Positions 43,561 through 58,000 of a stretch of DNA of 64,000 nt are shown here, piece by piece. The notes beneath the pieces were generated by a model. It was not told the origin of the DNA, did not search any database, and was given only the letters and a program-made list of their open reading frames with translations. The stretch's first letter is position 1. Each line of letters opens with the position of its first letter. The position numbers and the translations under genes were made by a program. Source of the stretch: Roseomonas sp. OT10 (GTDB lineage Bacteria > Pseudomonadota > Alphaproteobacteria > Acetobacterales > Acetobacteraceae); NCBI RefSeq assembly GCF_020991085.1, contig NZ_CP087719.1:3740001-3804000 (forward strand), given 5' to 3'.

Positions 43561-43633
43561 GCCGGGTTCCCATCGGATCAAGCCGGCCCGGTCGGGCGGC
43601 GCGCCCGGGATGGCCCCGGAGGCACCGCCACGG

Positions 43634-43689
43634 CCGTTTAGCGCGCTTCTTTCACCTCGCCGCAAGCTGGCCGGACAAATCGCGAGGGC
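43634..43689 (-). ncRNA. SAM-II riboswitch in the metZ leader
   Basis: On the minus strand the leader shows the conserved blocks of the alphaproteobacterial SAM-II aptamer: CGCGATTTG, GCTTGC, GGTGAAAG and GCTAAACG. The P1 stem is CCTCGC (43688-43683) with GCGAGG (43660-43655), and the 3' GCTAAA (43641-43636) can make the pseudoknot with the P1 loop. It ends about 74 bases before the metZ ATG. Control of translation start or transcription in cis is expected. Confidence 0.88.
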
Positions 43690-43712
43690 GCCCGTTCCCG
43701 GACGCGCAGCGC

Positions 43713-46293: not shown

Positions 46294-47520
46294 GGGTGGA
46301 ACACATCCCTTCTCGATCTCCATTCCAATAACGGGGCGATGCAACCGCTTTGGCATTCAACTTCATTTTTTGGAAGACGAAACTTGAATTTGGCTGTTTA
46401 TAGTCTATTTTCTCGCAACTCCGAGATTGCTTTGGCCAAATCGTGGGCGTTTGGATAAAAATATCGGCCTCTATCGCGCAGTCGTCGAACAAGTTCCGCA
46501 TCTATACGCTGAGCATCGGTGAAGGACGGCGCATCTGTAGGTAGCATTGATCGAACCGAACGAGTATCTTGTACAGAAAAAACCCAACCCTCTTTATGGT
46601 CTAGCATTCGAACAATTCTAGGGTAAATACGAAGTGAATTCCTCGGAATCCAAAATTCGAGAAATATAGGCCTCCAGCGTAAAACGTCTCGCGCTTGCCA
46701 ATTGGTAAATACGCCATTCTTGGGCATAGCGTCAATTTCTTCTTTTTCATCTGGCCGTATTTTTTTCGCCTTTTGTCGTGCGTTCGATATATCCTCCTCA
46801 TCAGAGGCAATACGACTCACTACAAAGCTGAGATCACCAAATTCTTCGGGTTTTAGGCAGATCATATCAAGAAGTGAACCGGGTCGGCTAACTTCCGATA
46901 CCATAGAATTTCGAGATTTAACAAAGCGCGCACGAGCTAATTCAACCGCGGCTTCATCTACTTTGTGAGAGCTTTCAAAGACCTTTTCAAACCAATTAGC
47001 GGTTGCTTGCCAGACAGGTGTATTTGGCTCGTGGAACGTTGCCGCTTCGATTAGTTTAGCGCCTTCACTGTCAAAGCCAATTCCATTGTCGGATGCGTTG
47101 GCTGACCCGATGATGACGCCTTGATCAGAAATATAGACTTTAGTGTGCAAACCAGACTTATGCCGCAATCGATTGTTCTCTGGCGCGCCAAGTTCAATCA
47201 GGGCATCAGGGCTAGTGCCACCCAGGTCAATGTTGCATACAACCCGCCAATCCTGCGGTCGGGCACCCATGCTCTCGAAAAACGAATGAGATCCTTTGCC
47301 CCAGAATGCAACAGCGCACCGGAGATTTTTGCCTCCTATAATACTTTGCAACGCTTTAGACAATTCCGCCCCAACAAGAAAATCCGCCATGAAGTTGCCC
47401 CCCAACCTGCCGTTCGTTAAGCAATGGCAAATACATATGCGATCCGCAGAAGCCTAAGACTCATGCCCATTCAGATCGTTAAACCACCCACGATCTTCGC
47501 GTAAATCAGAAAATAATCTA
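46294..47520. other. AT-rich horizontally acquired islet
   Basis: Base composition falls from above 70% GC to roughly 45% GC within about 50 bases at each side. The islet carries a single gene (PLD family, 46398-47390). A 7-bp inverted repeat AGATCGT/ACGATCT (47473-47479 and 47490-47496) lies near its right border. No integrase, transposase or flanking direct repeat was found, so the mode of arrival is unknown. Confidence 0.75.
46398..47390 (-). CDS. Phospholipase D-family (HKD) protein, likely nuclease
   Basis: A 330-residue protein of the PLD superfamily with one HKD motif: LHTKVYISDQGVIIGSANAS has H82, K84, D89 and the following G-S-x-N. Single-motif members usually dimerise to build the active site, and many are nucleases of restriction or defence systems. 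N-terminal residues (SKALQSIIGGKNLRCAVAFWGKGS) match the first strand-helix of such nucleases. The C-terminal half is unrecognised. ATG 47390 has GGGGGG upstream. Codon use and low GC mark it as foreign compared with the sel genes on each side. No partner gene is present. Confidence 0.8.
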   Translation of the reverse strand: MADFLVGAELSKALQSIIGGKNLRCAVAFWGKGSHSFFESMGARPQDWRVVCNIDLGGTSPDALIELGAPENNRLRHKSGLHTKVYISDQGVIIGSANASDNGIGFDSEGAKLIEAATFHEPNTPVWQATANWFEKVFESSHKVDEAAVELARARFVKSRNSMVSEVSRPGSLLDMICLKPEEFGDLSFVVSRIASDEEDISNARQKAKKIRPDEKEEIDAMPKNGVFTNWQARDVLRWRPIFLEFWIPRNSLRIYPRIVRMLDHKEGWVFSVQDTRSVRSMLPTDAPSFTDAQRIDAELVRRLRDRGRYFYPNAHDLAKAISELRENRL

Positions 47521-47521
47521 C

Positions 47522-47893
47522 TCAGGTTGGATCAAGCCGCAGCCTCAACCCCTCGGCGTTGAAGAACTCCCCCTCCCCCACCAGCGACCGATCCTCGTAC
47601 AGCGCCCGCGTCAGCGACCGCAGCCGGCCCCGCGCCTCCGCATCCGGCACCAGCCCCTCGCGCCCGGCGCGGTAGAAGACCGCCGCCGACCATTCCACCC
47701 CCGCCCCGGCGAAGAGCCGCAGCATGTCCGGCCAGCGAGTCTCCTCCCCCACCACATGCAGCCAGGCGCCGCGCAGCGGCTCCACCGTGCGCCCGGTCTC
47801 CCGCAGCAGCACGAACAGCAGCGTGAAGTCCCCCGTCTCGCGGTGGGCGGCGACCATCCACTCGTCGAAATCGGTGGTTATGGGCGGGGTCAT
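47522..47893 (-). CDS. Hypothetical protein coupled to selB
   Basis: A 123-residue soluble protein ([34 protein letters not shown]...). WLHVVGEETRWPDMLRLFAGAGVEWSAAVFYRAGREGLVPDAEARGRL and FFNAEGLRLRLDPT suggest a compact alpha/beta domain. I do not recognise the family. Its ATG (47893) forms an ATGA overlap with the selB stop (47890-47892), so it is probably translated by ribosomes finishing selB. A selenium-related role is inferred only from this position as the last gene of the sel operon. Confidence 0.78.
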   Translation of the reverse strand: MTPPITTDFDEWMVAAHRETGDFTLLFVLLRETGRTVEPLRGAWLHVVGEETRWPDMLRLFAGAGVEWSAAVFYRAGREGLVPDAEARGRLRSLTRALYEDRSLVGEGEFFNAEGLRLRLDPT

Positions 47894-49950
47894 GCGGGGT
47901 CCCCCGATGGCGCGCCGGGTGGCGGAAGAGAATGGGAGTCGAACCCACCCGGGACAGTCTCGCTGCCCCACCCGGATTTGAAGTCCGGACGCCCCACCGG
48001 GGACGCCTCTCTTCCAGCGGGATCGGCCGGCACGCGGCGGAACTGGTCGGCCCGGTGCGGATTCATGCGCCGCAGGTCGCCGCGCCGCAAGGTGACGCCC
48101 AGCCGGTCGAGGAAGTCCAGGATCTGGATCGCCACCTTCCGCCCGTTGTCCATGCGGTCGCGGAAGGCGGCGGCGGCGATCCAGCCGTCCGGGGCCTGCG
48201 CGGCCACGTCGCGGGCGATCTCCACCATCTCCGCCGTGGTGGCGCGCAGGAAGAAGTGGTCGTGCGCGATCTGGTCCACCCGCCCGAGGCGCGCGCAGAG
48301 CTTCAGCACGCGCCGCACCTCCGGCTCCGCCGCCTCCACCAGCGGCACCAGGTCGCGCACGCGCGGCGGCCGGAAGCGCGCCTCGCCGCCCAGCAGCGGC
48401 GCGATGCGGGCGAACAGCGCCTCGTCCGCCTCGGCCAGCGTCACCTCGTGGCCCGGCAGACGGAGGAAGGCGCCGTCCAGCACCAGCGCCCCGGCCCGCG
48501 CCTCGCGCTCCAGCACGGCGGTGAAGGCGGATGCCGGTAGCCGGGGCTGGAGGAGGAGGCGCAGCCGCTCGCGCCCGATGCCCTGCTGGTCCGGGTTCTC
48601 CGCGTGGAAGCCGGCCAGGGTCTCGGCCAGCCGGGCGCGATAGGCGTCCCAGCGCGGGCGGGACAGGGCCGTGCGCGTGCCCGCCGCCTCGATCACCACG
48701 AGGTCCAGTGCGGCCGCCATCGCCTCCGTCTCGCGCGCCGTCATCCCATGGTCGCGGCCGAAGGCGGCGAGGTCGAGGTGGTACGGCGGCAGCTCCAGCA
48801 GCCGCGCCAGCGCCACGGCCGGCTCCGGCAGGGCCAGCGCGTCGAGCTGGGCGAGGCGTTCCGGCGTGCGCCGCTTGCGCGCGGGGGCGCGCAGGTCGAG
48901 GAACCGCCCGCCGCCGATGGTCCGCTGCGCCGAGACGTCGCGCAGGATGAAGCGGTCCCCCGCGACGGCGGCGACGGGTGCGTCGAGCACGAGCTGGACG
49001 AAGCCACCCTCGCCCGGCGCGATGGGGTCGGCCAGCGGCACGACGCGGGCGCCCACCTCGGCGCTGGCATGGTGCAGCCGCGCGGGGAACCAGGTGCCGA
49101 TGGGCTTCGGCTCGGAGGGCAGGGCGCGGAACCAGGCGTCGATGCGGTCCGTGGGCGCGTGCAGCGCCGGGTCCAGCACCATGTCGCCGCGCGCGATGCC
49201 GTCCTTGCCCACCCCCTCGCCGGCGAGGTTGAGGGCGCAGCGCTGCCCCGTCAGGCCACGCTCGGCGGGGCGGTTCTGCGCGTGGAGGGAGCGCACCCGC
49301 GCCGCGAGCCCGGATGGGCTGATCCGCACCGCCTCCCCCACCGCGACGGCGCCGCCCAGCACCGTGCCCGTCACCACCGTCCCCGCCCCGGCCAGGGTGA
49401 AGCAGCGGTCGACGGAGAGGCGGAAGGCCCCCTCCCCGCCCCGCTGTCCGGTCGCCTCGGCCGCCGCGTCCAGCGCCGCGCGCAGGGCGCCGATCCCCTC
49501 CCCCGTCAGGGTGGAGACGGGCAGGACCGTCGCCCCCGCCAAGCCGGTCGGCGCCAGCAGCGCGCGCAGCTCCGCCGTCACCGCCGCCCGGCGCGCCTCG
49601 TCCGCGAGGTCCGCCTTGGACAGCGCCACGATGCCGCGCCGGATGCCGAGCAGGTCCAGGATCGCCAGGTGCTCGCGCGTCTGCGGCATGATGCCGTCAT
49701 CGGCCGCCACCACCAGCAGGGCGAAGTCGATCCCGCCCGCGCCCGCCAGCATGGTGTGGACGAAGCGCTCATGGCCGGGGACGTCGACGAAGCCCAGGCT
49801 GCGCGCGCCCTCCCCGGCATAGGCGAAGCCCAGCTCGATGGTGATGCCGCGCGCCTTCTCCTCCTTGAGGCGGTCGGTGTCGACGCCGGTCAGGGCGCGC
49901 ACCAGCGCGGTCTTGCCGTGGTCGATATGGCCGGCGGTGCCGACGATCAT
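47890..49950 (-). CDS. selB: Selenocysteine-specific elongation factor SelB, frame continuing through selC
   Basis: A 686-residue GTPase that brings Sec-tRNA to UGA codons by binding the SECIS hairpin. The N-terminus has [20 protein letters not shown] (G1), the DVPGHERF G3 motif and SKAD (G4). EF-Tu-like domains follow, and C-terminal winged helices end near [22 protein letters not shown]. Normal SelB would end there, at about residue 640. Here the frame stays open through the entire tRNA-Sec gene (about 45 further residues, including [14 protein letters not shown]) to a stop at 47890-47892, which overlaps the next gene. Its ATG overlaps the Sel1-repeat gene (ATGA). Confidence 0.93.
47920..48015 (-). 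tRNA. selC: tRNA-Sec (anticodon TCA)
   Basis: A 96-base tRNA including encoded CCA (47922-47920). The 8-bp acceptor stem is GGAAGAGA/TCTCTTCC with discriminator G. The anticodon arm CCGGA-CTTCAAA-TCCGG gives anticodon TCA, a long variable arm follows (CAGCGAGACTG region), and the T arm has GTTCGACTC. All are hallmarks of selenocysteine tRNA, and the sequence is close to that of E. coli selC as remembered. It lies wholly inside the selB reading frame on the same strand, so mature tRNA must be cut from the sel operon transcript or have its own promoter. Confidence 0.97.
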
Positions 49951-55078: not shown

Positions 55079-58000
55079 GACGTCACCCTCACCCGGTCCA
55101 CCGGCGCCGTGGAGGGCTCCAGATTGACCTGGAACGCCTTGACCGCCGGCGTCTCGATGTTCGCCTCACCCACGAACAGCGTCAGCGAGTTGGGGCCGAA
55201 GCCCTTCCGCGCCGCGCCGGTGAAGCCCCAGTGCAGCGGGATGCCCACCACATGCACCGTCTTGCCGTCGCAGATCAGCGGCCGGATGCGCTTGGTGACC
55301 ACGGCCCGGGCCTTCACCTCGCCCCGCTTCGACCACACCCGCACCCAGCCGCCGTTCGTCACGTTGCGCAGCCTGGCGAGTTCCTCGCTGATCTCGACGA
55401 AGAACTCGGGCTGCAGCACCGCATTCACCCGGTTGTGCTTGGTCCAGTAGTGGAAGTGCTCGGTCAGCCGGTAGGAGGTCGCCGCGAAGGGGAACTCCTC
55501 CGAATTGCCGAACTGGGGCACGTCGCTCTGGAAGATCCGTGCCACCGGGTTGCCGCGCATGCGCGGGTTCAGCGGGTTCGCGATGGGGCTCTCGAAGGGC
55601 TCCATGTGGCTGGGGAAGGGCCCGTCGCGCAGCATGCCCCGGCTGAACAGGCGCGAGACGCCCTCCGGGTTCATGATGAAGGGCATCACGTCGCGCGGCT
55701 TGGCCGTCGGCGCGATGTCCGGCACGTCGTCGCCCACCCACTTGGCGCCGTCCCATTCCAGGATCTTGCGCGTCGGATCCCAGGGCTTGCCGTCCAGGTC
55801 CGCCGAGGCCCGGTTGTAGAGCGTGCGGCGGTTGAGCGGCCAGGCCCAGGTCCAGTTGGAATAGGTCCCCAGCCCGCCGGGATCGCTGTTGTCCCGCCGG
55901 GCCATGTTGTTGCCCGCCTCGTTGAAGCAGCCGGAGTAGATCCAGCAGCCGCACATGGTCGAGCCGTCGTCGCGCAGCTGGCTGAAGTTCAGCACCTGCC
56001 TGCCGGCGGGCACGATCACCTTGGACGGGTCGGCCGGGTCCGTCAGGTCGGTCAGCGCCCGCCCGTTGATCTCCTTCGCCAGCTCCTCGGGCTCCGGCTC
56101 CTTCGGGTCGTGGTACGCCCAGGACAGGTTCAGGATCGGGTCGGGGAAGGCGCCCCCTTCCTTGCGGTACAGCTCGCGCATGCGGAGGAAGATTTCCGCC
56201 ATGATCCGCGTGTCGTGCCGCGCCTCGCCCGGCGGGGAGGCCGCCGGCCAGAACCATTGCAGCCAGCGGCCGGAGTTGGTCAGCGAGCCCTCGTCCTCGG
56301 CGAAGCAGACGGTGGGAAGCTGGATGACCTCCGTCTGGATCGCGGCGGTGTTCACCGGGTTGAAGTCGCCGTGGTTCTCCCAGAACCGCGCCGTCTCCGT
56401 CTCCAGCGGATCCATGGTGATGAGGAACTTCAGCTTCGACAGGCCGGCCACCACCTTGTCCCGGTTGGGGAAGGCGAGCAGCGGGTTGAAGCCCTGGCAG
56501 ATGTAGCCGTTCACGCGCCCGGCGTTCATCAGTTCGAACATGCGTAGCACGTCGTAGGCGGGCACGTCCAGCTTGGGCAGGTAGTCGTAGGCCCAGCCGT
56601 TCTCCGCCGTCGCGGCGTCGCCCCACATGGCCTTCTGGAAGCTGACCATGAACTTGCGGTAGTTCTGCCAGTAGCTGGTCTGGCCGGGGCGCAGCGGCTT
56701 GAACTGCCGCGACTTCATGTAGGTCTCGAAATCCGGCTCCGCCTCGGTCGGCATGTTCAGGTAGCCGGTGAGCAGGTGCGACATCAGGCCCAGATCGGTC
56801 AGGCCCTGGATGTTGGAATGCCCGCGCAGCGCGTTCATGCCGCCGCCGCGCACGCCGATATTGCCCAGGATGAGCTGGAGCATCGCCATGCCGCGGATGT
56901 TCTGGGCGCCGTGCGTGTGCTGCGTCCAGCCCAGCGCGTACATCGAGGTCATGGTCTTCGTGGGCGAGGAGCACTCGGCCACCATCTGCGCGACGCGGAG
57001 GAACTTCTCCTTCGGCGTGCCGCAGATGCGCTCCACCATCTCGGGCGTGTAGATCGAGACGTGCTGCTTCAGCAGGTTCCAGACGCAGCGCGGGTGCTGC
57101 AGCGTCGGGTCGACCTTCGCGAAGCCGTCCTCGCCGATCTCGTAGTCCCAGGAGGAGCGGTCATAGTCGCGCTTCTCCGGGTCGTAGCCGGTGAAGAGCC
57201 CGTCGGACCAGCCATAGCCCTCCTTCACGATGAAGGCGGCGTTGGTGAAGGCGCGGGTGTACTCCCACTGCACCTTGTCGTTCTCGATGCAGTGGCGGAT
57301 CAGCCCCATCAGGAAGGCGATGTCCGTCCCCTGCCGGATCGGCGCGTAGACGTCCGCGACCGAGGCGGTGCGGGTGTAGCGCGGGTCGACGACGATCAGC
57401 CGGGCGCCACGGTGGGCCTTCGCCTCCGTCACCCACTTGAAGCCGCACGGATGCGCTTCCGCCGCGTTGCCGCCCATGACGACGACGAGGTCGGTGTTGC
57501 GGATATCGGTCCAGGAGTTCGTCATCGCTCCACGGCCAAATGTCGGGCCCAAACTGGACACCGTGGGGCCGTGTCAGACGCGCGCCTGGTTATCGAATCC
57601 GACGATCCCGAGGGTCTTGGCGACCTTGAAGGTGCACCAGGCCGTCTCGTTGGTGGTGGCGGAGGCCGCGAGCATGCCGGTGGTGGTCCACCGGTTCACC
57701 GGAACGCCCGCGTCGTTGCGCGCCACGAAGTTGGCGTCGCGATCGTCCTTCATCAGCCGCGCGATGCGGTCCAGGGCGACGTCCCAGGACACCCGCTCGA
57801 ACCGGTCGGAACCGGGCTTGCGGATCATCGGGTATTGCAGCCGCGTGTCGGAGCGGACGAAATCCTTCAGCGCCGCGCCCTTGGGGCACAGCGTGCCGCG
57901 GTTGGTGGGGTGGTCCACGTCGCCTTCGACATGGAGCAGCTCCGCCCGCTCGCCCTTCCGGACGTCGCCGCGGGAATACATGATGACCCCGCAGGCGACC

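Follow-up and report, generated by a model that had tools for sequence, protein, structure and literature searches.

How can one stretch of DNA encode both a structured tRNA and the last residues of a protein that works with that very tRNA, an arrangement very unusual in bacteria, and is the double use kept by selection? The question is raised by Roseomonas sp. OT10, in which the tRNA-Sec gene (selC) lies entirely within the selB reading frame. The window analysed here is a stretch of 64,000 nt from this genome (RefSeq assembly GCF_020991085.1, contig NZ_CP087719.1, positions 3,740,001 to 3,804,000 of the forward strand), and coordinates refer to the window.

The nested arrangement is real and already known. 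It was first reported in 2021, and the accessible text of that paper describes selC nested in selB in diverse Alphaproteobacteria, Azorhizobium caulinodans being its type case and Roseomonas lineages among them, with a selB stop that overlaps ORF1 or ORF2, including as ATGA (Mukai 2021; PMC8124441). The same text proposes that tRNA processing produces a non-stop selB message and represses full-length SelB, and it records tRNA remnants as well as a partial selB–selC overlap in Dyella and Luteibacter. The arrangement is restated in the accessible text of reviews of 2022 (PMC9312934) and 2026 (PMC13188914), and no experimental test of nested selB–selC was found among open-licence papers. New here are counts of reading phase and stop distance, and the comparative support, drawn from sequence, that they lend to translation through the tRNA.

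Structure of the selB–selC locus

The selB frame runs on the minus strand from an ATG at 49950 to a TGA at 47890-47892 and encodes 686 residues. The features that identify SelB are present in its core (residues 1-627, 48070..49950), namely an EF-Tu-like GTPase domain (GTP_EFTU), Beta-barrel_SelB, and the winged-helix domains SelB-wing_2 and SelB-wing_3, with a match to NCBIfam TIGR00475 of 393 bits (cut-off 242). The models stop at residue 628 of 686 (TIGR00475 spans 1-628 and Pfam SelB-wing_3 589-628), and in five relatives whose fetched locus lacks tRNA-Sec the protein ends at RLNPHRLDLFG. This places the natural end of SelB at about residue 638, close to the residue 640 of the original prediction. 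The extension is therefore a short spacer, a tRNA-encoded peptide and nine further codons. Comparison with relatives assigns residues 628-645 (48016..48069, minus) to the final 11 SelB residues and a short, non-conserved spacer.

The tRNA-Sec gene occupies 47920..48015 on the minus strand and is 96 nt long including CCA. ARAGORN places it there with anticodon TCA, Rfam RF01852 matches 47924-48015 at 81.6 bits (gathering score 47), and in the selB frame it reads as 32 residues (646-677) from GGA (Gly, 48013-48015) to CCA (Pro, 47920-47922); as predicted, it lies wholly inside the same-strand selB frame. Nine codons follow (residues 678-686, 47893..47919, minus), which double as the leader of the next gene and include the motif GGGGGA at 47900-47905. 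The TGA of selB overlaps the ATG of a 123-residue gene as ATGA at 47890..47893 (minus), as had been claimed. This gene (47522..47893, minus), conserved beside selB in relatives in an alignment of 28 sequences, is referred to below as ORF2.

In the accessible text of Mukai 2021 (PMC8124441), the nested loci share with OT10 a whole tRNA-Sec of 96 (or 93) nt in a same-strand selB frame, GGA (Gly) as its first codon, CCA (Pro) as its last, and a selB stop that overlaps the beginning of the following ORF; nothing in that text sets them apart in kind. In the partial overlap of Dyella and Luteibacter described there, selB enters the tRNA in the identical phase (loci L093, L098, L110 and L113), but its stop is formed by tRNA nucleotides 46-48 and does not lie past the tRNA. 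The tRNA-Lys in cox1 of the Armadillidium vulgare mitochondrion, as cited in PMC8124441, is likewise a complete tRNA that sits within a protein gene and points the same way, but it belongs to a compact mitochondrial genome and involves another tRNA and another protein.

A sigma-70 scan of 47300-48700 gave no promoter for selC inside selB (0.1 expected), a scan that is hardly informative for such a genome. The cloverleaf does appear in the folded RNA, and the 201-nt stretch around the tRNA is no stabler than its own shuffles, the fold being equally good or better for 192 of 200. One fold hinted at a helix that pairs the tRNA leader with the trailer; this was rejected as it is unsupported across loci (mean z -0.25 in 51 nested loci and 0.11 in 66 loci with selB stopping before the tRNA).

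Survey of tRNA-Sec loci

Loci were drawn from the best 80 of 315 named SelB matches, from 397 genomes of the family (places of at least 62 bits) and from 289 genomes of the class (41 places). Among 224 loci fetched, ARAGORN found tRNA-Sec in 210, of which 195 were distinct: 51 are nested, in 12 the selB stop falls within the tRNA (in one case by a single base), in 66 it precedes the tRNA, and 66 have no same-strand selB upstream, counts that are not population frequencies because the named loci were chosen for their likeness to the OT10 locus. An additional phylum-wide sample of 398 genomes, 52 of them with tRNA-Sec, gave 52 loci, of which 3 were congeners already counted; it contributed 2 more nested loci, both in the phase common to all the others, 1 with the stop inside and 25 with the stop before the tRNA. 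Among the best 80 of 315 matches, the nearest named relatives belong to Roseomonas and its kin. Almost all nested loci fall within one clade of the SelB tree, and a clade of 75 rows contains 50 of the 51.

Within the genus of OT10, tRNA-Sec was found in 11 of 15 genomes, and the identical 11 have SelB. The selB frame traverses the tRNA in 8 of these 11, and selC lies away from selB in the other 3. A sequencing error as the source of the missing selB stop, a concern raised in the original prediction, was rejected as unlikely, since the frame also passes through the tRNA in seven congeners of OT10. The prediction had also named relatives with a stop ahead of selC as counter-evidence; such relatives exist (66 of 195 distinct loci), and the overlap is thus not essential.

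Several other configurations were encountered. In one Acetobacteraceae genus (g58; L155, L162, L177 and L202, all four sampled loci), selB uses another phase and reaches its stop within the variable arm of tRNA-Sec, with the tail ...GLQIR.GP; this partial overlap appears to have an origin separate from that of the nested type. In four Paracoccus loci (L066, L072, L074 and L086) the selB stop codon touches the 5' end of the tRNA with zero gap, so that RNase P would leave a message ending exactly in a stop codon. The selB of Mesorhizobium temperatum (L095) closes with 15 residues that correspond to the first half of tRNA-Sec, in a locus where no tRNA-Sec was detected, and resembles the Sinorhizobium meliloti remnant described in the accessible text of PMC8124441. 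In one congener (G236:C2:212585-214464) SelB was matched as two overlapping pieces, residues 1-360 and 355-627, which indicates that the gene is broken or misassembled there.

Reading phase and position of the stop

An open frame through the tRNA is not in itself a signal of selection and was rejected as such, as 58 of the 66 tRNA-Sec genes lacking an upstream selB are open in the same frame. The phase in which selB enters the tRNA, measured with the anticodon as anchor, is a different matter. It is single in all 51 distinct nested loci, whereas the 66 stop-before loci are spread over the three phases (25/24/17), as are the 19 stop-before rows within the 75-row clade (7/6/6), and the 12 inside loci fall evenly into two (6/6). 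Spacer length changed at least 21 times (FastTree) or 22 times (quick IQ-TREE) among nested loci with zero changes of phase; the stop-before loci show 49 length changes and 26 phase changes. Nor does the tRNA sequence dictate this phase. All three frames are open in 40 of the 51 nested tRNAs, and of 102 frameshifts computed at the end of the SelB core, 72 would still run past the tRNA, the median tail then being 160 aa as against the actual 48 aa. If about 0.41 of frame-open length changes kept phase neutrally, 21 out of 21 would have a chance near 1e-8, a figure that assumes this neutral rate and counts changes by parsimony on trees with weak branches for loci that share ancestry.

The stop itself also lies closer in the selB frame than in the others. 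In nested loci the in-frame stop is found at a median of 21 nt past the tRNA (range 9-147), compared with 329 nt in the other two frames, and the selB frame is the earliest of the three to stop in 43 of 51 nested loci as against 17 of 66 stop-before loci. What exceeds chance is the constant phase together with the early stop in frame, and not the openness of the frame.

An ATGA overlap with an ORF of at least 80 aa is present in 26 of the 51 nested loci, although the one in L091 looks spurious, and two further nested loci overlap the next ORF in another manner. The remaining 23 of 51, with no overlapping ORF of 80 aa, still hold the phase, so coupling to a downstream gene cannot be the whole reason for it. 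In these loci the stop is again early (27 vs 124 nt; earliest of the three frames in 18 of 23) and the phase was kept over 10 spacer changes, which makes avoidance of a long nonsense tail a likely second reason.

Codon usage in the extension

Codon-position GC (positions 1/2/3) is 0.69/0.42/0.81 over the final 50 codons of the SelB core, 0.77/0.60/0.69 in the spacer and 0.68/0.71/0.61 after the tRNA. In the spacer, GC3 exceeds the lower of GC1 and GC2 by 0.084, a value reached by a fraction of 0.001 of 2000 per-locus frame shuffles; after the tRNA no codon bias was seen in this measure among nested loci. Since there is little codon bias outside the tRNA, selection more likely acts on termination and on the hand-over to the following gene than on a functional peptide.

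The downstream gene

The gene at 47522-47893 belongs to a family found downstream of selB in Roseomonas and Paracoccus, a placement that fits ORF2 as the accessible text of Mukai 2021 describes it and makes the gene a candidate for that ORF. Within the genus it is present in 10 of 11 SelB-bearing genomes and in none of 4 SelB-free genomes. ORF2 of OT10 has no Pfam or NCBIfam match at 0.001 and none to PDB sequences at E values up to 1, and across the family only weak Pfam matches were obtained, in 1 to 3 of 28 members. ORF1 proteins likewise had neither a Pfam match above cut-off nor any NCBIfam match.

In 24 of 27 ATGA loci the leader between tRNA and ATG measures 9-29 nt. Pairing with the anti-SD is modestly stronger than in shuffles (mean -4.7 vs -3.0 kcal/mol), so some ORF2 copies may rely on ribosomes arriving from selB. 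The OT10 copy has a good SD-like site of its own and could be translated from a cut message without depending on coupling. The link between selB and ORF2 can also outlive the tRNA: in Faunimonas pinastri selB ends in ATGA with ORF2 although the fetched locus has no tRNA-Sec, and in R. mucosa ORF2 begins about 10 nt past the selB stop. In three relatives (L038:6174-7520, L043:6026-7411 and L044:6017-8315), 1.4 to 2.3 kb of other DNA separate selC from ORF2; the L038 stretch encodes a 448-aa protein of repeats, and selB of L038 stops before the tRNA.

Interpretation

The constancy of the phase and the nearness of the in-frame stop suggest that selection probably keeps the selB frame through the tRNA, which would mean that ribosomes indeed travel across the tRNA sequence. 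The reading that we favour, with a probability of about 0.6, is that they translate across it to the shared stop often enough for selection to remove frameshifts, and that the transcript has two fates. Frameshifts would be removed because a shift would in most cases leave SelB with a long nonsense tail and disrupt the ATGA hand-over. Where ribosomes pass, they would make SelB with a non-conserved tail and may feed ORF2 by termination and re-initiation. Where the folded tRNA is cleaved at its 5' end by RNase P, the transcript would yield one tRNA-Sec and no further stop-terminated SelB. The counterweight is that many relatives manage without the overlap, with 66 of 195 loci stopping before the tRNA and 12 inside it. 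The original prediction had reasoned that translation must unfold the tRNA and that the 5' cut removes the selB stop; its anatomy was confirmed, and its reasoning is judged sound and matches the hypothesis in the accessible text of PMC8124441.

That hypothesis, as the original prediction also took it, goes further and holds that the nested tRNA exists to limit SelB and ORF2: maturation of the tRNA would convert the message into a non-stop fragment and thereby keep the SelB:tRNA-Sec ratio steady. Such a purpose follows from the anatomy and from known tRNA processing, as proposed in PMC8124441, and the kept phase agrees with a message that ribosomes read through to its end before it is cut. However, the overlap was lost in many relatives (66 of 195), 3 of the 11 congeners with tRNA-Sec carry selC apart from selB, and the cut ORF2 message would keep its leader (9-29 nt in 24 of 27) and, in OT10, the SD-like site, which argues against a full switch-off of ORF2; we consider such a purpose possible but doubtful. 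Unlikely, in our estimate, is a self-consuming timer in which a race between ribosome and RNase P sets the output of SelB and ORF2 per tRNA, with selection on the race holding the phase across the clade.

The arrangement might also be a neutral by-product, the ancestral selB stop having been lost once ahead of a GC-rich tRNA that happens to be open. Openness is indeed cheap (58 of 66 genes without upstream selB), nearly all nested loci sit in one SelB clade, and stops before the tRNA arose repeatedly. What makes neutrality improbable are the 21 out of 21 phase-keeping changes, with a chance near 1e-8 at about 0.41 each, and in-frame stops far earlier than those of other frames; that account is strained by now. 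A tail that works as part of SelB, for instance as an RNA- or ribosome-binding extension whose peptide is itself selected, would explain why nested loci show almost no variation in the tRNA-encoded peptide, why phase is preserved even without an overlapping ORF and why the spacer bias (0.084) exceeds per-locus frame shuffles. The tRNA alone would conserve those letters, however, while the SelB core has a far stronger bias than the spacer and there is none past the tRNA, and SelB of close relatives ends ahead of the tRNA, so that a working tail appears highly improbable.

Translation to the shared stop, with frameshifts removed by selection, thus remains our preferred reading. The phase test indicates that the coding role of the tRNA stretch is probably real, and the published idea of a competition between tRNA maturation and SelB synthesis for a single transcript therefore merits experiment. 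For annotation, the C-terminal extension of SelB in such genomes should be treated as tRNA-encoded and not as a domain.

Neighbouring features of the window

Two RNA elements elsewhere on the minus strand of the window score above their Rfam gathering scores, SECIS_3 at 57521-57579 and an alpha-proteobacterial SAM riboswitch at 43618-43696. Directly after ORF2 lies a 335-aa gene (46398-47405, minus) with 44-50% GC in surroundings of 70-78%. It has weak PADLOC matches to ZacB and DrmC and none in Pfam or NCBIfam at 0.001, and the region is probably acquired DNA.
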